This document shows positions 4,391-15,684 of a stretch of 36,554 nucleotides of DNA, piece after piece (the first letter of the stretch is position 1; each line of letters opens with the position of its first letter). The position numbers were made by a program, and so were the translations under genes. The notes under the pieces are model-generated. The model had not been told where the DNA came from and searched no databases. It was given only the letters and a program-made list of their open reading frames with translations. This DNA is from a virus, in IMG/VR virus record IMGVR_UViG_3300032087_002006, positions 1 to 36,554 of that record, one strand, 5' to 3'.

Positions 4391-4633
4391 ATGAAGAAAC
4401 GCGAACAACTAGAAGAACTTCAGGTCTTACTTGCCGACACCTACCGTAAAGTTATATCCGATATGGATCTTGACGATCCTAATGCGGCGATTTTAAACGG
4501 AGCTAGGCAATTCCTAAAGGACAACGATATTATCAGCGTAACCGAGAAGTCTTCACCGCTTGGTAAACTCGCTGATGTACTCCCTTTTGACGAGTCCTCA
4601 CACACACAAGAAGCCCTTAGACAGTCGAAATAA
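4391..4633 (+). CDS. terminase small subunit (T7 gp18-like)
   Basis: This 80-residue protein has the AAILNGARQFLKDNDI segment (about residues 32-47) typical of the small DNA-packaging subunit of T7-like phages; T7 gp18 is 89 residues. It would recognise concatemeric phage DNA and load the large subunit. The gene is two bases after the adhesin stop, and its TAA shares a base with the ATG of the large subunit, so translation is likely coupled. No separate DNA-binding motif can be seen by eye. Confidence 0.85.
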   Translation: MKKREQLEELQVLLADTYRKVISDMDLDDPNAAILNGARQFLKDNDIISVTEKSSPLGKLADVLPFDESSHTQEALRQSK

Positions 4634-6309
4634 TGAACGAGGTTCCAGCGGAGCTTCGGGACTTCCGAAACTTCTTGTTCGTTTGTTGGAAGCACCTAGG
4701 TCTACCTGACCCTACACCGCTTCAGTACGACATTGCAAACTACCTACAATACGGCCCAAAGCGAGCAATCGTCATGGCGTTCCGAGGCGTGGGTAAATCG
4801 TGGATCTGTTCCGCCTATGTCGTCCACCAACTACTCCTAGATCCATCTAAGAATATACTCGTCGTATCGGCGTCTAAAACGCGTTCTGATGACTTCAGTA
4901 CCTTCACGCTTAGGTTGATCCATGAAATCCCCGTATTGGAGGGTCTAAAGCCACGAGACGGGCAACGCTTCTCTAAGATCTCATTTGATGTTGGCCCCGC
5001 TCCAGCGTCCCATGCACCGTCGGTTAAGTCGTTAGGTATCACCTCGCAGTTGACGGGATCTCGTGCCGATATAATCGTCGCTGATGACGTGGAAGTGGCG
5101 AACAACTCAGCTACCCAAGGAATGCGTGATAAACTATCTGACCAAGTAAAAGAGTTTGATGCTATCGTTAAACCGCTAGATACCTCCCGTATTCTATTCC
5201 TAGGGACACCTCAATGCGAAGACTCCATCTACAACAAACTAAGAGAGCGTGGATACGCCATTCGTATTTGGCCTTCGGAGTATGTCGGTTCCAAAAAGAA
5301 CACAACCATCTACGACGGCGCTATTGCCCCGTTTATAGACGAGAATACAACCGACGATAATATCGGGAAATCAACCGAGCCTTTACGGTTCTCTGACATC
5401 GACCTTGAAGAACGAAAGCTCTCATACGGAAGATCCGGGTACTCGTTACAGTTCCTCCTGAATCCCCGCCTAAGCGACGCTGATCGCTACCCGTTAAAGA
5501 TCAACGATCTAATCGTACATGACCTCGATAACGATGTGGCACATGAAAAGTATGTGTGGGCTTCGTCCCCTGACCTCGCTATAGGCGACCTTCCAAACGT
5601 CGGTTTTAACGGCGATAGGTTCTACCGTCCATTCCAAACACTAGGAGATATGGTCGAGTACACAGGCTCCGTTATGGCGATTGACCCATCGGGTCGTGGT
5701 CGCGATGAAACCGCCTATAGCGTCGTTAAGATGCTGAATGGGTTCCTGTTTGTACACGCTTGTAACGGCATTAAAGGCGGATACGGTGAGAACGTCCTTA
5801 ATGAACTAGCTCGTGTAGCAAAACGCTACAAGGTCAACGAAATCATTATTGAGTCCAATATGGGCGATGGTATGTTCACCGAGCTTTTTAAACCTGTTAT
5901 TACCTCCGTTTATCCCGTTACACTTAGTGAAGTAAGACACAATATTCAGAAGGAAAGACGGATGATAGACACGCTAGAACCCGTCTTAAACGCCCATAAA
6001 CTCGTCGTTGATCCCACCGTTATTAAACACGATTATCAAAGCCTAGCGTCATATCCTATCGAAATTCAAACACGATATTCACTTATGTACCAGCTATCAC
6101 GCCTTACAGCGGAGAAAGGATCTATCCTTCAAGACGACCGCTTAGACGCCTTAGCTATGGCTGTAGCTTATTGGGTACAACAAATGTCGGCTAACGCTGA
6201 CACGAAAATGAAAGACCGAAGAGAAGAACTCCTTAATGAAGAACTTGAAAGCTTCGTTAATAGTACCTTCGGAGTCAACAAATCTAAGTCTTCGTTAGTG
6301 TGGTTCTAG
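4633..6309 (+). CDS. terminase large subunit (T7 gp19-like)
   Basis: This is the packaging ATPase and nuclease, 558 residues (T7 gp19 is 586). The Walker A-like P-loop FRGVGKSW is at about 50-57, Walker B IIVADDVE at about 147-154, and a coupling motif LFLGTPQ at about 188-194. The RNase H-fold nuclease shows acidic residues in AIDPSGRGRDETA (Asp about 351), IIIESNMGDG (Glu about 408) and DDRLDALAMA (about 501-510). It would pump DNA through the portal and cut the concatemer at the genome end. In T7 this gene lies next to the right genome end, which makes the repeat-rich DNA downstream a candidate for the terminal region. Confidence 0.96.
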   Translation: MNEVPAELRDFRNFLFVCWKHLGLPDPTPLQYDIANYLQYGPKRAIVMAFRGVGKSWICSAYVVHQLLLDPSKNILVVSASKTRSDDFSTFTLRLIHEIPVLEGLKPRDGQRFSKISFDVGPAPASHAPSVKSLGITSQLTGSRADIIVADDVEVANNSATQGMRDKLSDQVKEFDAIVKPLDTSRILFLGTPQCEDSIYNKLRERGYAIRIWPSEYVGSKKNTTIYDGAIAPFIDENTTDDNIGKSTEPLRFSDIDLEERKLSYGRSGYSLQFLLNPRLSDADRYPLKINDLIVHDLDNDVAHEKYVWASSPDLAIGDLPNVGFNGDRFYRPFQTLGDMVEYTGSVMAIDPSGRGRDETAYSVVKMLNGFLFVHACNGIKGGYGENVLNELARVAKRYKVNEIIIESNMGDGMFTELFKPVITSVYPVTLSEVRHNIQKERRMIDTLEPVLNAHKLVVDPTVIKHDYQSLASYPIEIQTRYSLMYQLSRLTAEKGSILQDDRLDALAMAVAYWVQQMSANADTKMKDRREELLNEELESFVNSTFGVNKSKSSLVWF

Positions 6310-7440: not shown

Positions 7441-7624
7441 ATTGCAACGGGATCCAAGCGGCGGCAACGCGGCGCCTTTATCTTTACCTTTATCGGTGTT
7501 TTTTTGGCTCGCCTTAAAACGCGATAAAGACCGCCGCCTAAAACGCGCCGTTTCCTCGCCGTAAAGCCGCCTTAAAACGCGTTTTAATCTTTCCGTGTAT
7601 ACTAACTAAGGCCAGCCTTTGCCG

Positions 7625-7641
7625 CCGTTTAAAACGCGTTA
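7625..7641 (+). repeat. left copy of 17-bp flanking repeat
   Basis: The 17-mer CCGTTTAAAACGCGTTA here matches CCGTTTAAACCGCGTTA at 9928-9944 in 16 of 17 positions, in the same orientation. The pair brackets the whole minus-strand gene block. Because the core AAAACGCG is repeated several times locally, this may reflect a shared motif rather than an insertion duplication. Confidence 0.4.
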
Positions 7642-7665
7642 AAAGCCGCCGCTAAATCTAGGCAC

Positions 7666-7687
7666 AAAAAAGCCGCCCGAAGGCGGC
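7666..7687 (-). terminator. Rho-independent terminator with UUCG loop
   Basis: Read on the minus strand: GCCGCC, TTCG loop, GGCGGC, then TTTTTT. This is a perfect 6-bp G+C stem closed by the exceptionally stable UUCG tetraloop and followed by six T. It lies about 30 bases past the stop of the last minus-strand gene (7718-7864). It therefore fixes the direction and end of that operon and shows it is built for host-type RNA polymerase. Confidence 0.88.
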
Positions 7688-7717
7688 GATTAAGGCGGCG
7701 TTTAAAACGCGGCGAGG

Positions 7718-7864
7718 TTAGAGTGAACGGGATCCAGCGCTAAGCATTAAGAAACAAATTACAAGCCATAAGATCCCGCCTATAATTGCAACGGCGGCTG
7801 TGACTATCTTTTCTTGCCGGGAACGAATAGGGAAGCCGCAAGAGTCTACTTTATCTTTTTTCAT
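7718..7864 (-). CDS. 48-residue single-pass membrane protein
   Basis: This short frame reads MKKDKVDSCGFPIRSRQEK, then a hydrophobic helix of about 21 residues (IVTAAVAIIGGILWLVICFL), then MLSAGSRSL. The positive N-terminal segment predicts a cytoplasmic N-terminus. It starts 22 bases downstream of the GP88-like gene stop, with an A-rich leader ending ATAAGAAA before ATG. It is the last gene before the terminator at 7666-7687. A holin-like, toxin-like or superinfection-exclusion role is conceivable, but no family is recognised. Confidence 0.7.
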   Translation of the reverse strand: MKKDKVDSCGFPIRSRQEKIVTAAVAIIGGILWLVICFLMLSAGSRSL

Positions 7865-7886
7865 TTTCTTATATTTTGCTTGGTTA

Positions 7887-8594
7887 TTAGTTAAGAATAA
7901 AACCGCTGGTATCTTTTTTTGCCGTGCCTTTAGCTAATAGACCGACAACGTGCCCGGCTGGATCCAAAAAACGCAAATCATTCTTGTCACCGTCTAAAAC
8001 GGGAGCGCCTTGCCACTCATCCGGCAACCTATTTCGAAACACAGCGGCAACGTTCGCGCCGCGGCTCGCCAATTGCGCCGCCTTTGCACCGTTTGATTCG
8101 TCGCGGGAAAACGTCAGGCTGTAATTTTCGGGAAGGTTGCCGCTTAGATATTTTTCTATCCTGTGGGATCCCTTGCTATAATCGTAAAAAGGAACCGTCG
8201 GCAACGCGTCAATTATCCCATACTTTTCCCACGCAACGTCGCTGGTACCGTTCAGGCGCACGCTCAATCTATAGCCTTGCGACGCGCTCCAAACGACGGC
8301 CTTTTTTATTTCACTTTTCAGGATATCGACAAATTGCTGGGGATCCTTTTCGAATAGTTGCGTTTTTCTCAGGCGGCCCTTTTGAACCGTCGACATCTTG
8401 CCGCGGCCCTGATTAAAAAGACAGGCGTCTTTACAGGCTCCAGCCCACGGGCAAAGGTTTTTAGTTCCTAGCTGGCCCGCTGGGACAAGATAAAGAATAG
8501 CTGTAAGCCAGCCTAAGTCTTGCCCTTTTCGCGTTTTAGGATCCCCGCCGATTGCAAGTAAATCGTACCGTTTTGATATAGTTTTGCTTTTCAT
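7887..8594 (-). CDS. GP88-family protein
   Basis: This 235-residue protein is assigned by pattern to the family named after mycobacteriophage 'gene product 88'. In order it has GGDPKTRKGQ (16-25), YLVPAGQLGTKNLCPWAGAC (35-54), a Cys cluster C48-x5-C54-x3-C58, KGRLRKT (72-78), VRLNGTSDVAWEK (112-124), FYDYSK (136-141), YSLTFSRDESN (158-168), NVAAVF (181-186), DGDKNDLRF and GLLAKGTAKKDTSGF near the end. The family occurs in phages and plasmids; its biochemical function is, to my knowledge, not established. The Cys cluster suggests a metal site. I chose the ATG at 8594, four bases after the upstream stop; an in-frame ATG at 8651 would overlap the previous gene by 53 bases. Confidence 0.85.
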   Translation of the reverse strand: MKSKTISKRYDLLAIGGDPKTRKGQDLGWLTAILYLVPAGQLGTKNLCPWAGACKDACLFNQGRGKMSTVQKGRLRKTQLFEKDPQQFVDILKSEIKKAVVWSASQGYRLSVRLNGTSDVAWEKYGIIDALPTVPFYDYSKGSHRIEKYLSGNLPENYSLTFSRDESNGAKAAQLASRGANVAAVFRNRLPDEWQGAPVLDGDKNDLRFLDPAGHVVGLLAKGTAKKDTSGFILN

Positions 8595-8598
8595 TTTC

Positions 8599-8838
8599 TT
8601 AATTTGTTTCAATTTCGCCTGTAAGCCGCATCCTAAACTGCACTCCATCAATAAAGGCGTCGACGCGGCTTAATAGATCCCTTTTAGTTTTAGACTCAAT
8701 TCTAACAAAAGGGTGCTCTTTAGATTCAATTCTGTAATGTGCCGGGGCCTTTGTAATGTGCCAACTTGCGCCGCGCGTCCAAAGGCTCAAACGGTTTAGA
8801 GAATATTCTATATCTTTTTTGCTTATTTGTTTTTTCAT
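8599..8838 (-). CDS. small hypothetical protein of the minus-strand operon
   Basis: This 79-residue basic protein starts MKKQISKKDIEYSLNRLSLW and continues with ASWHITKAPAHYRIES, then TKRDLLSRVDAFIDGVQFRM. The plan of an N-terminal helix, short strands with a YRIES-type line and a C-terminal helix ending in a DAFIDG motif resembles short proteins I associate with plasmid and phage accessory regions. I cannot name the family. It lies two bases after the stop of the upstream gene, with GGAG about ten bases before the ATG inside that gene's end, so translation is probably coupled. Confidence 0.7.
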   Translation of the reverse strand: MKKQISKKDIEYSLNRLSLWTRGASWHITKAPAHYRIESKEHPFVRIESKTKRDLLSRVDAFIDGVQFRMRLTGEIETN

Positions 8839-8840
8839 GA

Positions 8841-9263
8841 TTAATAGGCTCCCATTGCGGATAATTTTGCCCGGTCTTTTTCAAGGTGTGCAAGATACGG
8901 TGCAAGCGGCGTTAAAATCTTATCGATTGCTTCAAAAGCTTGCCGCTGGCAATTATCCCAAAACATCATTGTGTGAACCTCAATTTTGTATGGATTTGCA
9001 TTGCTAGTCACAGCCCACCAAAGCGCCGTTGCGATAAGCGCGTTTTCCTCGTCGACTAAGGCGCGCTCCTTATTCATTGAAAACTTTTTCGCTAGCGTTG
9101 CCTTGCTGATTAAATAGCCGGTGCGTTGGTTAAATATTTCAGGCCATACCATTGCCAGCCGCGGCCCTGAGATCCATTGAGGCAACCTATCCCGCGTTAT
9201 TTTCGGGAAAGTGCTGGCAATTGTCTTAATTAGTAAAATACGGTTTTCTTTTGACGTTTCCAT
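8841..9263 (-). CDS. hypothetical protein of the minus-strand operon
   Basis: This 140-residue protein is mostly helical by composition and has no signal peptide. Notable segments are METSKENRILLIKTIASTFP, RDRLPQWISGPRLAMVWPEI, ISKATLAKKFSMNKERALVD and a hydrophobic EENALIATALWWAVT. The SKATLAKKFSMN stretch could be a helix-turn-helix-like recognition segment, but the match is weak. It begins three bases after the upstream gene's stop, with AGGAAA lying in that gene's last codons as the ribosome binding site. No family is recognised. Confidence 0.65.
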   Translation of the reverse strand: METSKENRILLIKTIASTFPKITRDRLPQWISGPRLAMVWPEIFNQRTGYLISKATLAKKFSMNKERALVDEENALIATALWWAVTSNANPYKIEVHTMMFWDNCQRQAFEAIDKILTPLAPYLAHLEKDRAKLSAMGAY

Positions 9264-9266
9264 TGC

Positions 9267-9461
9267 TTAGATTTCCTCGCTTTTTACTTCAAACTTGAAC
9301 CCCATTGCCTTAATTTCCTTCACGGCGTGCGGCGGCAATGTCTTTTTATTGATAAGCCGGGCAAAGGCGGCGGAAAGACAGCAATTAGGGTAAACTAGTT
9401 TATTGCCGTATTTAGTCTCAACCTTAACATATAAGGTATTTTTTACATATGGATTATTCAT
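9267..9461 (-). CDS. small hypothetical protein of the minus-strand operon
   Basis: This 64-residue protein has strands YVKNTLYVKVETKYGNKLVY, a PNCCLSAAFARLI helix with two adjacent cysteines, then KKTLPPHAVKEIKAMGFKFE. The design (two strands, helix, 'KTL ... IKAMGF', final strand) resembles short proteins of phage and plasmid accessory regions whose function I do not know. Its leader is one of the two copies of a 33-bp repeat, with AGAAAG about 10 bases ahead of ATG in place of a canonical Shine-Dalgarno sequence. Confidence 0.65.
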   Translation of the reverse strand: MNNPYVKNTLYVKVETKYGNKLVYPNCCLSAAFARLINKKTLPPHAVKEIKAMGFKFEVKSEEI

Positions 9462-9494
9462 TTTTTCGTTTTCTTTCTATTTTTGTGATTATTG
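9462..9494 (-). repeat. 33-bp leader repeat, copy 1
   Basis: This is identical to 9707-9739 over 33 bases. Read on the minus strand it runs CAATAATCAC, AAAAATAGAA, AGAAAACGAAAAA and ends at the ATG of the 64-residue gene. It contains the TAA stop of the preceding gene (9489-9491), so the whole 27-base spacer between the two genes is repeat. A conserved translational leader or a recent duplication are both possible. Confidence 0.85.
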
Positions 9495-9707
9495 ATTAAA
9501 TTTTTCAACCTCGCTTGCCAGCAATTCAAACACAGCACCGTTTTGGATGTCGTTTTCCTCGGCAAGCTTTAAAACGTTGCGGCTTTCATTAAGTAAAAAG
9601 GCGTCCCCAGCAATATAACCGTAGGCGGCAAAAGGGCCGTATCTTAATTTACTGAGTAATTCTAAGGCGTGGCTGTAAAGCGCGTTCTCTAATGTGGAAT
9701 TTTGCAT
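9489..9707 (-). CDS. first gene of the minus-strand operon, hypothetical
   Basis: This 72-residue protein, MQNSTLENALYSHALELLSK onward, has alternating helices, a central YGPFAAYGYIAGDAFLLNES stretch and an acidic C-terminal helix ending EVEKFNQ. No membrane segment or family is recognised. It is the promoter-proximal gene of the minus-strand operon. Its ATG follows the second copy of the 33-bp leader repeat. No convincing -10/-35 pair is visible upstream on the minus strand. Confidence 0.65.
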   Translation of the reverse strand: MQNSTLENALYSHALELLSKLRYGPFAAYGYIAGDAFLLNESRNVLKLAEENDIQNGAVFELLASEVEKFNQ

Positions 9708-9739
9708 TTTTCGTTTTCTTTCTATTTTTGTGATTATTG
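9707..9739 (-). repeat. 33-bp leader repeat, copy 2
   Basis: This exact copy of 9462-9494 directly abuts, and includes one base of, the ATG of the first gene in the minus-strand operon. Identity stops at both edges, so the unit is the leader itself rather than a longer gene duplication. Confidence 0.85.
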
Positions 9740-9927
9740 TTTTTTCCCGTTTTGAGCCCGGCGGCTGGATCCCTTAAAAACTAAGGCCGCAACCGTTGCA
9801 AGCTTTTTTTAAAACTTTTTATTTCAATGACCACCTTAAGGGATCCCTTGCAAGCGCTCAGGCGGCGGCTTTTTTCAACCATGCAAATCTAAACTAAAAC
9901 TTTAAAATTTCAAGGTAAGTAAAAGCA

Positions 9928-9944
9928 CCGTTTAAACCGCGTTA
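9928..9944 (+). repeat. right copy of 17-bp flanking repeat
   Basis: CCGTTTAAACCGCGTTA matches 7625-7641 in 16 of 17 positions and lies on the far side of the minus-strand gene block. It may mark a boundary of the block or simply be another copy of the local AAAACGCG-type motif. Confidence 0.4.
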
Positions 9945-9945
9945 T

Positions 9946-9960
9946 TAAATACACTAAAAA
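9946..9960 (+). promoter_or_regulatory. candidate phage RNA polymerase promoter, copy A
   Basis: The 15-mer TAAATACACTAAAAA is identical to 9990-10004. Its CACTAAA core equals the core of the bacteriophage T3 promoter and is close to T7's CACTATA, with an A+T-rich upstream half as in those promoters. The orientation faces the early genes at 10188. This assignment is an inference from the pattern; no matching series was found by eye before the late genes. Confidence 0.4.
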
Positions 9961-9987
9961 CACCGTTTCCACCGTTTCCACCGCGTC
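9961..9987 (+). repeat. three 9-bp tandem units
   Basis: CACCGTTTC, CACCGTTTC and CACCGCGTC run end to end. They fill most of the space between the two promoter-like 15-mers, so they may be operator or iteron sites acting on them. Confidence 0.65.
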
Positions 9988-9989
9988 CA

Positions 9990-10004
9990 TAAATACACTA
10001 AAAA
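9990..10004 (+). promoter_or_regulatory. candidate phage RNA polymerase promoter, copy B
   Basis: This is the second exact copy of TAAATACACTAAAAA, 44 bases after copy A and followed by GACC. Tandem promoters close to the primary origin are known in T7 (phi 1.1A and 1.1B), which makes this pair plausible as a start point for transcription-primed replication. That role is inferred. Confidence 0.4.
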
Positions 10005-10011
10005 GACCTTT

Positions 10012-10044: not shown

Positions 10045-10093
10045 TTTTACGTGTACGTGTTCGTGGCTAGACTTTTTACGTGTACGTGTTCGT
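10045..10093. repeat. duplicated 20-mer with ACGTGT hexamers
   Basis: TTTTACGTGTACGTGTTCGT occurs at 10045-10064 and again at 10074-10093, with a 29-base start-to-start distance. Each copy holds two head-to-tail ACGTGT hexamers followed by TCGT. Direct repeats with internal hexamers are typical of iterons or multi-site operators. Their position about 100 bases before the first early gene suggests control of early transcription or replication. Confidence 0.75.
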
Positions 10094-10473: not shown

Positions 10474-10707
10474 ATGAAACTATCATTAAATCTATTCACC
10501 CACAATCTCACCATCGCACTTCAGCGTAAGCGTCGTTTATTAACGACAGTTGAATGCGCCAAACAGCTAGGACTCAGTCGAGCCACAGTCAATCTGTACT
10601 CACGCCAAGGACGCATTAAGTGTCGCGGTAAGGCTACAGTTGGATTCTCGAAACAGACCGCATTTCTGTACGACATTGACGAAGTAAGAAAGGTAGCGTT
10701 CAGATGA
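10474..10707 (+). CDS. small helix-turn-helix DNA-binding protein
   Basis: This 77-residue basic protein has a recognisable MerR/excisionase-like helix-turn-helix: TTVECAKQLGLSRATVNLYS (about residues 24-43) followed by RQGRIKCRGK. The C-terminal part, FSKQTAFLYDIDEVRKVAF, matches the wing and final helix of such proteins. It could be an early regulator or a recombination directionality factor for the integrase 1 kb downstream. The gene order and size suit either, and the sequence alone does not decide. Its stop overlaps the next ATG (ATGA). Confidence 0.75.
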   Translation: MKLSLNLFTHNLTIALQRKRRLLTTVECAKQLGLSRATVNLYSRQGRIKCRGKATVGFSKQTAFLYDIDEVRKVAFR

Positions 10708-10915: not shown

Positions 10916-11407
10916 ATGAGTAACAATCTTAGAAGTAAACCGAAACTGATCGCTCTTACCGGGCCAAAAGGCGTTGGTAAATCCACCTATGCGAAGTTCT
11001 TGGCGGGTGAGAACGGCGTTGTAATGTCGTTTGCATCGCCCATCAAGGATATGTTGAGAGTGTTCATCAAGGACGAGTATATCGACACCCACAAGGAAGA
11101 GTTGATACCGCATATAGGGACGACAGCCCGTACGCTTTTACAGACGCTTGGTACTGAATGGGGACGAGACACGATCAATCCTGATATATGGGTCAATGTT
11201 ATGAGGCGTAAGCTTTGCCACGGTATGTTCAACGAGTATCATCCTGTCATCATCGACGATCTTCGCTTCAAGAATGAGGCGGAGATGGTACGACAGCTTG
11301 ACGGCGAGGTATGGAAGGTAGCTCGTAAAGGTTTTGATAGCGACGCTACTGACAAGCACATATCGGAAGCTGGATTGCCTGATTGGGACAAGAGTGTGTT
11401 GCTATGA
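10916..11407 (+). CDS. deoxynucleoside monophosphate kinase-like protein
   Basis: This 163-residue P-loop protein has Walker A GPKGVGKST at about 16-24. It also has MSFASPIKDMLRVFI, a conserved block TARTLLQTLGTEWGRDTINP with DIWVN following (about 69-93), and VIIDDLRFKNEAEMV. This pattern belongs to the T4 gp1-like dNMP kinase group found in many phages, which phosphorylates dNMPs to dNDPs. It would feed the phage DNA polymerase. The stop overlaps the next gene's start (ATGA). Confidence 0.85.
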   Translation: MSNNLRSKPKLIALTGPKGVGKSTYAKFLAGENGVVMSFASPIKDMLRVFIKDEYIDTHKEELIPHIGTTARTLLQTLGTEWGRDTINPDIWVNVMRRKLCHGMFNEYHPVIIDDLRFKNEAEMVRQLDGEVWKVARKGFDSDATDKHISEAGLPDWDKSVLL

Positions 11408-11745
11408 ATTGGGAGATCAAAGGCGACGATATAATCTTGCATGATTACGAAGCTGATCTTGCCCAAGGCGATTGGATGCACCTTACTGTCGAGTTTCCTA
11501 CTCGTGAAGAAGTCATAAAGGGCTTCGAGGAGTTTTGGAGAAAGAACGAAGTGAAGGAGTTTCCAAAGGACGAACACGGCAGAAACCTACGCGACGAGAA
11601 CGGCGATATAATCGTCATTAGAACCGACAAGCCAAGAGAGCGGAAGAAAGATCAACTGTACTTCCGTAATGAACGGCAAAAGGCGGTAGCTAGAGAACGC
11701 AAACGAATGCAAAAGAAAGAAAACGAAGACTATGAAACTAATTGA
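11404..11745 (+). CDS. conserved early protein with long basic coiled C-terminus
   Basis: This is a 113-residue protein. I chose the ATG at 11404, which overlaps the kinase stop, rather than an in-frame ATG at 11383 inside the kinase gene. The N-terminal half (MNWEIKGDDIILHDYEADLA, then QGDWMHLTVEFPTREEVIKG) is strand-rich, while the C-terminus is a charged helix rich in Arg/Lys/Glu (RNERQKAVARERKRMQKKEN). There is no recognised catalytic motif. The last 14 bases overlap the integrase start, so expression of the two is probably linked. Confidence 0.65.
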   Translation: MNWEIKGDDIILHDYEADLAQGDWMHLTVEFPTREEVIKGFEEFWRKNEVKEFPKDEHGRNLRDENGDIIVIRTDKPRERKKDQLYFRNERQKAVARERKRMQKKENEDYETN

Positions 11746-12547
11746 TTTAGCTGGAGAAGTATATGACCGACATTGGCGCGGGTGTAAGGATGGATTGGGA
11801 CTACTAAGGAACGCTGAAGACGTCTGTGACCGCATGGGAAGCGTGTCTGTGACGAAGCTGGACGAACGGAACATTGATGACCTCGTCTTGGATCTCGAAA
11901 GGGACGGCAAAGCAAACGCTACGATCAATCGTCGATTAGCGGCGTTAAGTAAGATGCTACAACACGCCTATCGTCGTCGATACATAGAAAGGCTACCCGT
12001 AATCGAAAGAAAGCGGGAGCCTGAAGGTCGTATGCGTTGGTTGACCAAGGACGAAGAGATCAGAATGATCGACAAGTTACGAGCCATGAAGCTCGATGAC
12101 ATCGCCGACTTCTGCATCGTGTTGATCGACACCGGGGCGAGGACAGGGGAACTGTTTAAGTTACAAGCCAAAGACATCGATCTTGACCAGCGTATGATGT
12201 ACCTAAGAAACACAAAGAATGGTAAGTCACGAGCTGTACCGCTCACATCGCGAGTCGTTGAGATAATGAGAGGGTGCATAAGGCAGACCTTTTTGTTCGA
12301 CTTCACACAAGACTCATTGAATTACCATTGGAAAAAAATGAAGTTCCTGATGGGCTTTGGCGACGACAAGGAGTTCACACCGCATTGTTTACGACACACT
12401 TGTGCGTCTAGGCTCGTTCAAAAAGGCGTTGATATATGTGTAGTACAGAAGTGGCTGGGTCACACCTCGATTCAAACGACGATGAGGTACGCCAAGATCG
12501 CGCCTAAAAACTTAGCAGATGCACGGGACATATTAGAAAGTCATTGA
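11732..12547 (+). CDS. int: tyrosine recombinase / phage integrase
   Basis: This 271-residue tyrosine recombinase has the full catalytic set: Arg137 in DTGARTGEL, Lys at about 162-165 in NTKNGKSR, His218-x-x-Arg221 in PHCLRHTCAS, His244 in KWLGHTSIQT and nucleophile Tyr253 in TTMRYAKI. An N-terminal SAM-like core-binding domain covers about 1-95. It would recombine phage attP with a host attB, often a tRNA gene. The place directly before the RNA polymerase is the same as in integrase-bearing pelagiphages and some cyanophages. It appears intact, implying a temperate option, but no attP could be identified nearby (42 bases to the next gene). Confidence 0.93.
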   Translation: MKLIDLAGEVYDRHWRGCKDGLGLLRNAEDVCDRMGSVSVTKLDERNIDDLVLDLERDGKANATINRRLAALSKMLQHAYRRRYIERLPVIERKREPEGRMRWLTKDEEIRMIDKLRAMKLDDIADFCIVLIDTGARTGELFKLQAKDIDLDQRMMYLRNTKNGKSRAVPLTSRVVEIMRGCIRQTFLFDFTQDSLNYHWKKMKFLMGFGDDKEFTPHCLRHTCASRLVQKGVDICVVQKWLGHTSIQTTMRYAKIAPKNLADARDILESH

Positions 12548-12589: not shown

Positions 12590-14995
12590 ATGGATCAATC
12601 AACTCTTAATCGCGACATGGTCGAGCAAGGAGTCGCTCGATATAGACGACGTGTTCAATCGGCTCGTGAACGCGGTAGTGAATCTGAAGCTCCGTACAGT
12701 ATCCGAATAATGCGGAACTACCTACCGCAGATTACGGAAGATGTAGCGAAAAGATTTGAGTTCCATCGCAAGTACAGACACGCCATACCCGCATTCATGC
12801 CGTTGATATGGAACATGGATGTCAATGCGTTGTGTTTGCTGGCGTTTAAAAGCGTCCTTGACGGCATTTGTGAGCGTCGTCCTTTGACTTCAGCGGCGAT
12901 ACGATTGTCGTCTTATATCGAGGATGAACTGCGTTACTGTCGCATGAAGGAAGAGTATCCTGATATTTGGAAGTATGCAGAGCGTGATCGTCTGAAGCAC
13001 AAAGGCAAAAGACGAAGCCGTGATGCGTGGTTGAGACACGATAAAGGCGAGACCCGCAAGGGTAACATGGAGCAATGGCGGACATGGACTCGCAAGGAAA
13101 AGCTAACGATGGGTACATGGTTTCTTGAGATCATCAGAACCAACACTCATGTCATCATGTTTCAAACGATCAGCGATGCTCCGAATAAAACAGTTTTATA
13201 TGTAACAGCAACTGAAGAACTATTTGATTGGATACAAGATTACAATAAACATTCAGAAGTTTTAAAACCTTTGTGGTTACCAACGGTGGAACCTCCGCAA
13301 GATTGGAAGTCTATTCTTGTTGGGGGGTACGATAAGAACGCGGGGGTTCCACCGCTTTGTTTCATCAAGTCATTCGACCATGACTACCTTGATAGCTTGG
13401 ATAAGAGCGAGCTGAAGCACGTCTTTGACGCGGTTAATCATCTGCAAAAGACGCAATGGCGCGTTAATAACGCCGTTTTAGACGTCGTCAGGTGGGCGTG
13501 GGAGAACAACAAAGAGATCGGCGATATGACCCGTCGTAGTGATTACGAGACACCGCCTTGGAATCCAGCGTATGAAACCGACGATGATGCTCGTAAAGAG
13601 TTTAGCCGTAAGTGCGGAGCTATCCACCGATTAAACATCAGCTTGAAGAGTCAGCGACTACACACGATTAAGCTGTTGTACATGGCTGATAAGTTTGAGA
13701 ACGAAGTCTTTTACTATCCGTACCACATCGACTTTCGTGGAAGAGTGTATCCGATCCCTTACTTTTTACAGCCACAAGGGAATGATCTTAGTAAATCGTT
13801 ACTCAGGTTCGCAATTAGCAAGGAAATAAAGACCGATGAGGACGCCAAATGGCTCGCTATTCACGGGGCTAATTGCTTCGGTAATGACAAGTTATCGTTT
13901 GATGAACGAGTTAAGTGGGTAAAATCCAAACGCCGTGAGATCGAGGAAGTCTACGAAGATCCAAAGACGAACGATTGGTGGGCATCCGCAGACAGTCCGT
14001 GGCAGTTCCTAGCGTTCTGTTTGGAGTGGGGTGAGTACCTCAAGGTAGGTAAAGGTTTCCTAACGACGCTACCGTGCGCTATGGACGCGTCTAATAACGG
14101 CATACAAATACTCAGCTTGTTGGGACGAGACGAAGAAGGCGGACGTAGCACAAATGTAACACACAACGATACACCAGCAGATCTTTACGGCGAGATAAGC
14201 GACAAGGTAAACGAGGAATTGATGAAGCGAGCCAAGGACGGCGATCACATCTCGTCTGCATGGCTGAAGTTTGGAGTGGATCGGAAGACGACAAAGCTCC
14301 CGGTCATGGTCAAGCCATACGGCGGTACACGATATTCGTGTCGTGACTTAGTCCAACAATGGTACAACGACAAGTGCAAGAAGTTGGAACTCGATCCATT
14401 CGGGTATGAAGCGACAGTAGCAATCGGGGAACTATCGCAGATCATTTGGAACACGATGAATGCCAGCTTGAGAAAGCCCAATAAAGTTATGGCGTGGCTA
14501 CAGCAAGCGATCAGAGTCGTGAACAAGGACGATAAGTATGTGGAATGGACGACGCCTTTAGGATTTCGTGTTCGTCAGAGATACTTCGCTACCAAGATGC
14601 AGAGAATACAGACGCTGTTGGGCGATAAGATCTCGTGGATTAACTATCACTTACCGCTTGAAGGCGTCGATAAACAACGACAAGCCAATGCGATCAGCCC
14701 TAACTTCGTTCACAGCCTCGATGCAAGCGTCGCTCAGAAGACTGCGATAATGGCGAAGGCACAGGGGATTGATTCGTTGGCTATGGTACACGACAGTATA
14801 GCAACTCATTGTACAGAATGTCGTACATTAGGTAAAATCATTCGACAATCTACCGCTGATATATTTTTAACCGATCAACTCGCAAAGTTTCGCGACGAGA
14901 TCACACAACAAACCGAGAGGGAGTTACCTGAGTTGCCGACATACGGATCATTAGATCCTAAAGCGGTGCTAGACTCAGCATACTTCTTCGCATAA
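12590..14995 (+). CDS. single-subunit DNA-directed RNA polymerase (T7 gp1-like)
   Basis: This 801-residue polymerase (T7 is 883) transcribes middle and late phage genes. It contains DFRGRVYP at about 381-388, motif A PCAMDASNNG with the metal-binding Asp at about 499, motif B RKTTKLPVMVKPYG at about 565-578 (Arg, Lys, Tyr, Gly conserved) and motif C AMVHDSIATH with the second Asp at about 735. The N-terminal domain is shorter than in T7. Cognate promoters are unknown; two candidates lie at 9946 and 9990. The gene is the defining marker for a T7-like phage. Confidence 0.97.
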   Translation: MDQSTLNRDMVEQGVARYRRRVQSARERGSESEAPYSIRIMRNYLPQITEDVAKRFEFHRKYRHAIPAFMPLIWNMDVNALCLLAFKSVLDGICERRPLTSAAIRLSSYIEDELRYCRMKEEYPDIWKYAERDRLKHKGKRRSRDAWLRHDKGETRKGNMEQWRTWTRKEKLTMGTWFLEIIRTNTHVIMFQTISDAPNKTVLYVTATEELFDWIQDYNKHSEVLKPLWLPTVEPPQDWKSILVGGYDKNAGVPPLCFIKSFDHDYLDSLDKSELKHVFDAVNHLQKTQWRVNNAVLDVVRWAWENNKEIGDMTRRSDYETPPWNPAYETDDDARKEFSRKCGAIHRLNISLKSQRLHTIKLLYMADKFENEVFYYPYHIDFRGRVYPIPYFLQPQGNDLSKSLLRFAISKEIKTDEDAKWLAIHGANCFGNDKLSFDERVKWVKSKRREIEEVYEDPKTNDWWASADSPWQFLAFCLEWGEYLKVGKGFLTTLPCAMDASNNGIQILSLLGRDEEGGRSTNVTHNDTPADLYGEISDKVNEELMKRAKDGDHISSAWLKFGVDRKTTKLPVMVKPYGGTRYSCRDLVQQWYNDKCKKLELDPFGYEATVAIGELSQIIWNTMNASLRKPNKVMAWLQQAIRVVNKDDKYVEWTTPLGFRVRQRYFATKMQRIQTLLGDKISWINYHLPLEGVDKQRQANAISPNFVHSLDASVAQKTAIMAKAQGIDSLAMVHDSIATHCTECRTLGKIIRQSTADIFLTDQLAKFRDEITQQTERELPELPTYGSLDPKAVLDSAYFFA

Positions 14996-15012: not shown

Positions 15013-15684
15013 GTGAAAGAAATCACAACACCAATAGGAACCGCAAGATATTGCTGGCTAACAGCACCAGCTACAGGAGAATACGATGGCGAGCATGGCC
15101 TGTATCGTACAGAACTCGTTCTCAGTCAAGAAGATTGGGAAGCATTGAAGCTAGAAGTAAAGCCAAGCTTTGAAGCGTTTCTCGAAGCGGAGTCACAAAA
15201 GAAAGGTAAACAACTAAAACCAGCACCAGCGTCGCCGTTTAAAATCGATGACGAAGGCAACCACTACATCAAAACGAAGCGTAAAGCGGCATACAATATG
15301 AAAGCTAATGCTCGTGATGTTGAAGATGGTAAAGCTGAAAAGGTTGGAGATCCTGTAGTGATTAACGCGCCAGCTACATTACTTGTAGACTCATCAGCAA
15401 CACCGATTAAAGGCGACAAGCCCGTCATCGGAGCTGGTAGTCGTATAAGGCTGGGCTTAAAGGTCAGGTTTTGGTACGTGCCAACACAAGGTGTAGGTAT
15501 GACGCTTGAACCAATATCAGCACAGATCATAGAGCTTAAAGATGTCGCTGAATCTGAGAGTGTAGGCGCGTTCAAAGCCGAAGAATCCGGGTACAAACAC
15601 GGGGGAGAAACCTTCGAGTTTAAAAAAGAAACAGAACTGAATGAGAAAGAAGAGGAAGCCAAGCCGCTCGCGGCGGACTTCTAA
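15013..15684 (+). CDS. single-stranded DNA-binding protein (T7 gp2.5-like)
   Basis: This 223-residue protein (T7 gp2.5 is 232) starts at GTG with MKEITTPIGTARYCWLTAPA. The OB-fold core ends around LGLKVRFWYVPTQGVGMTLE (about 150-169). The acidic tail finishes EEEAKPLAADF with a terminal Phe, as in T7 gp2.5, where the acidic, aromatic-ended tail contacts the polymerase and helicase. It coats single-stranded DNA in replication and recombination. The 3' end overlaps the endonuclease gene by 44 bases. Confidence 0.9.
   Translation: MKEITTPIGTARYCWLTAPATGEYDGEHGLYRTELVLSQEDWEALKLEVKPSFEAFLEAESQKKGKQLKPAPASPFKIDDEGNHYIKTKRKAAYNMKANARDVEDGKAEKVGDPVVINAPATLLVDSSATPIKGDKPVIGAGSRIRLGLKVRFWYVPTQGVGMTLEPISAQIIELKDVAESESVGAFKAEESGYKHGGETFEFKKETELNEKEEEAKPLAADF

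Follow-up and report, generated by a model that had tools for sequence, protein, structure and literature searches.

What does a protein do that occurs in at least 264 phage records (Mycobacterium phages account for 235) and in at least 583 viral contig stretches, and for which a literature search (PF17338, DUF5131) has yet found no paper describing a function? The question is raised by the GP88 family, whose name comes from gene 88 of Mycobacterium phages such as L5, and here by one member encoded on the minus strand of a 36,554-nucleotide stretch (the window), an IMG/VR virus record (IMGVR_UViG_3300032087_002006) of a T7-like phage. In one mycobacteriophage paper "gp88" is a gene number used for Cluster K phages, and it was not taken as the GP88 family. 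The window encodes a terminase (4633-6309), a dNMP kinase (10916-11407), an integrase (11732-12547), an RNA polymerase (12590-14995), and a Gp2.5-like ssDNA-binding protein (15013-15684), as well as an endonuclease, a primase/helicase, a DNA polymerase, an exonuclease, and a head-tail adaptor; Rfam and tRNA scans of the window returned none. The closest RNA polymerases (33-37% identity) are those of an uncultured Mediterranean phage, Pseudomonas phage LUZ100, and pelagiphages.

The gene is a 235-a.a. ORF at 7887-8594, with its ATG at 8594 and its stop ending at 7887; read on the plus strand, this interval is rich in stops, and it is coding on the minus strand only. A sequence-only reading of this DNA had described a cysteine cluster (C48-x5-C54-x3-C58) together with several recognizable blocks, and correctly so, as the cluster, VRLNGTSDVAWEK, FYDYSK, LTFSRDES, and AKGTAKKDTSGF are all found in the protein. 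The same reading had assigned the protein to GP88 and proposed an HMM search, which bears the assignment out: Pfam PF17338 (GP88) matches residues 20-233 at 149.8 bits (E = 1.5e-43), against a curated cut-off of 24.4 bits. The protein also matches phrog_1617 (E = 3.5e-67), a family whose function is unassigned, and carries all of the family invariants (three Cys, R/N/D, YDY, S, D..D.R, and KG). The window gene belongs, as an ordinary member, to a known, widespread, uncharacterized phage family, and is not a new kind of system.

Conservation was counted over 116 distinct GP88 homologues. C54 and C58 are cysteines in 115/115 homologues and C48 in 115/116; R113, D119, D138, Y139, S163, and D206 are identical in 116/116; and K20 and K23 are invariant in all 112 homologues that have these positions. 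In all, the three cysteines and some ten polar residues are invariant, which is far beyond chance. The spacing of the cysteines is x6-x3 in 82 homologues, x7-x3 in 27, and x5-x3, the rarer form found in the window, in 7. No fourth invariant Cys or His is present among the 116 sequences.

According to an AF2 model built with 70 sequences, the window protein is a confidently predicted β/α barrel-like fold (pLDDT 93.6, pTM 0.90), with strands at residues 29-34, 109-113, 136-140, 158-163, 182-186, 197-201, and 216-220. By residue number, the Cys loop (8421-8453, minus strand), whose three cysteines are probable ligands of a metal cluster, lies after strand 1, with 13 residues between the strand and C48; in the model, the order of strand and Cys loop agrees with that of radical SAM barrels, in which the loop directly follows the strand. 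Invariant polar residues fall, again by residue number, at the C-ends of strands 2, 3, 4, 6, and 7. For instance, R113-L-N-G-T-S-D119 (8238-8258) lies at the C-end of strand 2, Y137-D-Y-S-K141 (8172-8186) in strand 3, and G202-D-K-N-D-L-R208 (7971-7991), in which D203, D206, and R208 are nearly invariant, in the loop after strand 6 (all minus strand). In the model, the invariant residues would line the mouth of the barrel, a spatial clustering that is argued from strand order and residue numbers.

Comparison of the model with the PDB by Foldseek gave no solved structure at E ≤ 0.001, and the radical SAM matches (viperin, prob 0.28) were no better by E-value than those to other barrels. Run against viral models, the comparison gave a putative radical SAM protein of Campylobacter phage F379 as the top named match beyond GP88 itself (E = 0.007, prob 0.85). 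Sequence searches of solved structures with three queries (P0001, A2, and A5) gave chance matches or none. The CX3CX2C motif is absent from the window protein, and a PF04055 match is found neither for this protein nor among the families listed for 70 homologues; because of these two absences, GP88 is not filed as a tested radical SAM member. A generic radical SAM profile, made from the PF04055 proteins of five genomes, aligned with GP88 at P = 0.006-0.011 and, against GP88 as against DUF5131, gave nothing convincing.

The nearest annotated group was reached by a different route. PF07505 (DUF5131) weakly matches 2 of 70 GP88 relatives (best E = 0.0018), the window protein itself not being matched, and in Alphaproteobacteria independent searches with PF17338 and PF07505 return several of the same genes. 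A DUF5131 protein (E = 5e-77 to its own family) is matched by Pfam GP88 with an E-value of 2e-7, which clears the GP88 cut-off, in an alignment that starts near the Cys motif. Over 395 Bacteroidota genomes the Pfam GP88 profile gives 2 strong and 26 weak matches, and 24 of the 26 weak ones are to genes that NCBIfam TIGR04471, 'radical SAM mobile pair protein A' (rSAM_mob_pairA), finds as well. DUF5131 proteins likewise match TIGR04471, the best of them (E = 3e-25 to 4e-32) over most of their length; the TIGR04471 matches are far below the 355-bit cut-off of that model, whose radical SAM name is itself an annotation.

Profile-profile alignment (hhalign) of GP88 with DUF5131 gave P = 8e-5 with the (N)xxSD and TK blocks aligned, and P = 2.7e-4 for a second pair with the Cys loop, SD, and TK blocks aligned, as compared with P = 0.14-0.89 for reversed or shuffled controls. 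In these alignments R113-L-N-G-T-S-D119 matches the N-S-M-S-D block of DUF5131, and Y137-D-Y-S-K141 matches L-T-K-R. Two other profile pairs gave P = 0.03-0.04, and a narrower, custom-built profile of GP88 finds DUF5131 only marginally (best E = 0.013), so that the case rests mainly on the Pfam profile and on the specificity of its matches. On profile evidence, GP88 and DUF5131 are distant homologues that share ancestry at the superfamily level. A DUF5131 model (pLDDT 91.4) has strand 1, C19-x6-C26-x2-C29, and helix 1 in succession, which is the order of strand, Cys loop, and helix in radical SAM domains. Foldseek found nothing in the PDB for this model at E ≤ 0.001; its list is headed by E-value by O-GlcNAcases and includes lipoyl synthase (prob 0.90), Mmp10 (0.85), and lysine aminomutase (0.84). 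The name 'ssDNA-annealing protein' given in one paper to a Gp37Gp68 protein (PMC5463345) is a label by annotation only and was not adopted.

The gene lies in a leftward operon in the order 72-, 64-, 140-, 79-a.a. ORFs, GP88, and 48-a.a. ORF, and is, as the sequence-only reading had said, the largest ORF of this minus-strand cassette (9707-7718). The 72-a.a. ORF (9489-9707) has no homologue in GP88 loci, nor has the 79-a.a. ORF (8599-8838) in other GP88 loci. The 64-a.a. ORF (9267-9461) belongs to no family and has homologues in the four closest relatives (L001-L004), which are IMG/VR contigs with an 88% identical GP88; outside them, the only resembling ORF among other GP88 loci is one of 65 a.a. 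beside GP88 in the more distant L044. The 140-a.a. ORF (8841-9263), also without a family, has homologues of 57-60% identity upstream of GP88 in the same relatives, and the 48-a.a. ORF (7718-7864), directly downstream of GP88 and with one apparent membrane-spanning stretch, has homologues there too (all on the minus strand). A hairpin resembling an intrinsic terminator, GCCGCCTTCGGGCGGC followed by TTTTTT (7672-7687, minus strand), ends the operon; a hairpin and T-run stand at the same place after the 48-a.a. ORF in the four relatives, with different stem sequences that nonetheless pair. These relatives keep the 64-, 140-, and 48-a.a. ORFs and the same flank, and are without the 79- and 72-a.a. 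ORFs. Since AATGGGAGCCTATTAAT precedes GP88 in L001 and the 79-a.a. ORF in the window, the latter looks inserted in the window genome, or else was lost in L001. NCBIfam searches of GP88 and the cassette proteins gave nothing meaningful. Near-identical leaders, with CAATAATCACAAAAATAGAAAGAAAACGAAAA before the ATG, precede the 64- and 72-a.a. ORFs (9447-9497 and 9692-9742), a duplicated translation-start region, and several CGCCGYYTAAAACGCG-type repeat copies occupy the non-coding stretch after the cassette (7523-7711).

This operon separates the late end of the genome (terminase and small late genes) from the early end (excisionase-like protein, dNMP kinase, integrase, and RNA polymerase). The small excisionase-like protein (10474-10707; phrog_66, E = 8e-5) is near the integrase, which suggests a temperate lifestyle for this T7-like phage. 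Upstream of the early genes are two exact 20-nt direct repeats, TTTTACGTGTACGTGTTCGT (10045-10064 and 10074-10093, 29 nt apart), possibly regulatory or recombination sites, and beside them a 42-nt direct repeat whose copies are 83% identical and lie 44 nt apart (9926-10011). GGATCC is clustered in the 2.4-kb minus-strand cassette: 8 of the 10 sites in the window lie within 7450-9841, where 8 of 11 GATC are part of GGATCC, versus 2 of 179 elsewhere in the window. The clustering is absent from the four relatives and was rejected as a functional signal; it may have arisen by chance or be left over from a recent acquisition.

Outside the Mycobacterium phages, GP88 is carried by pelagiphages, HMO-2011, roseophages, rhizobial phages, and jumbo phages, and it is found at 19 loci in bacterial genome records and in one plasmid record. 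Of 24 small-phage records, 17 have the gene no more than 3.3 kb from an end of the record, a placement that suggests early entry or expression, and only suggests it, because many phage records start arbitrarily. The commoner neighbors elsewhere are terminase (33 loci), C5 DNA methylase (17), integrase (17), and a cluster including DUF932 (14). There is thus little support for the idea, put forward from the sequence, that GP88 defines the job of a cassette with partners of 79, 64, and 48 residues: the 79-a.a. ORF is absent from L001-L004, the 64- and 48-a.a. ORFs, like the 140-a.a. ORF that had not been listed, occur almost only in those relatives, and other genes flank GP88 elsewhere. In very different phages (L012, L104, and L016: Puniceispirillum phage HMO-2011, Aminobacter, and a Mycobacterium phage), GP88 has a homologue of Mycobacterium phage L5 gp82 close by. 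As a general partner of GP88, the gp82-like protein was rejected: 7 of 37 records or genomes carry it, and the window does not.

The reading we favor, with somewhat better than even confidence, is that GP88 is a non-canonical, three-cysteine, radical-SAM-like Fe-S barrel enzyme, and it is favored because the Pfam GP88 profile reaches DUF5131/TIGR04471 genes. From this we infer a cluster, a use of SAM, a substrate, and an early timing, as follows. GP88 would be expressed from the short leftward operon between the late and early genome ends. The three cysteines in the loop after strand 1 (C-x5/7-C-x3-C) would hold a [4Fe-4S] cluster with one iron open, SAM would bind at the open iron and be cleaved to a radical, and both SAM and substrate would be held in position by invariant residues (Arg, Asn, Asp, Tyr, Lys, and Ser) of that face. 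The putative early role would be to modify a host or phage macromolecule or metabolite. A bolder version, which we advance tentatively and think doubtful as a whole, would make GP88 a separate non-canonical radical SAM family (C-x5/7-C-x3-C), present in many unrelated phages at or near the genome end and serving in early take-over, with a host or phage macromolecule as the target of the enzyme. The earlier suggestion of a metal-binding enzyme is upheld indirectly, by the three invariant cysteines, the polar residues at strand C-ends in the model, and the DUF5131/TIGR04471 homology; its other half, a nucleic-acid protein, found no support beyond the neighbor genes.

Three close cysteines are typical of zinc sites as well, and GP88 could instead be a zinc protein, in which they and another ligand would hold a structural Zn and the protein would be a non-catalytic binder of DNA, RNA, or a host protein, as neighbors in other loci, such as the DNA methylase and DUF932, might suggest. 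We consider this unlikely, as a fourth invariant Cys or His was not found in the 116 sequences, the confidently modeled barrel-like fold carries invariant Arg, Asp, Tyr, Lys, and Ser at strand C-ends that look catalytic, and the homology is to a radical-SAM-annotated group. GP88 could also be a barrel enzyme that binds Fe-S or zinc and works by another mechanism, e.g., an open-iron hydro-lyase or a Zn(Cys)3 alkyl-transfer enzyme; the matches to solved structures are scattered over many barrel enzymes, none of them significant, and the canonical radical SAM motif is absent. However, Zn(Cys)3 methyltransferases have their ligands on late strands, whereas GP88 has its three cysteines in a single loop past strand 1, and the annotated group closest to it bears the radical SAM name, so such a mechanism seems quite improbable to us.

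Whatever the chemistry of GP88, it could also be the effector of a dispensable accessory or superinfection/defense module. The separate leftward operon with its own terminator, the small membrane-type 48-a.a. ORF, the turnover of neighbors (the 79- and 72-a.a. ORFs), and the spread of GP88 over many unrelated phages are consistent with such a module. On the other hand, PADLOC gave no match for GP88 or the neighboring cassette proteins, and the partner ORFs are not kept with GP88 elsewhere; we regard the module as very improbable. With the link to DUF5131 and the radical-SAM-annotated group, a family that had been an orphan gains an enzyme hypothesis open to testing, for which the cultured Mycobacterium phages are practical material.

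Set beside the canonical radical SAM superfamily (PF04055), GP88 resembles it, in the model and by residue number, in a barrel-like order with a three-Cys loop after strand 1, but differs in having no CX3CX2C, no PF04055 match, and no significant structural match. To DUF5131 (Gp37/Gp68, PF07505, including TIGR04471), a link that is new here, GP88 is distantly related: HMM homology is found in both search directions, and the two have in common an early-barrel Cys loop, xxSD after strand 2, and TK after strand 3. Their Cys motifs differ, being C-x6-C-x2-C-Y in DUF5131 and C-x5/7-C-x3-C-L in GP88 (C-x5-C-x3-C-L in the window), and the GGESG and FFFKQWG blocks of DUF5131 are absent from GP88. Within the GP88 family (PF17338/phrog_1617), the window protein matches over its full length, far above the cut-off and with all invariant residues, and its Cys motif has the same x3-C-L end, but its first spacing is x5 where the usual family spacing is x6. 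In the pelagiphage relatives examined, GP88 is co-directional with the RNA polymerase, whereas in the window it lies on the opposite strand.
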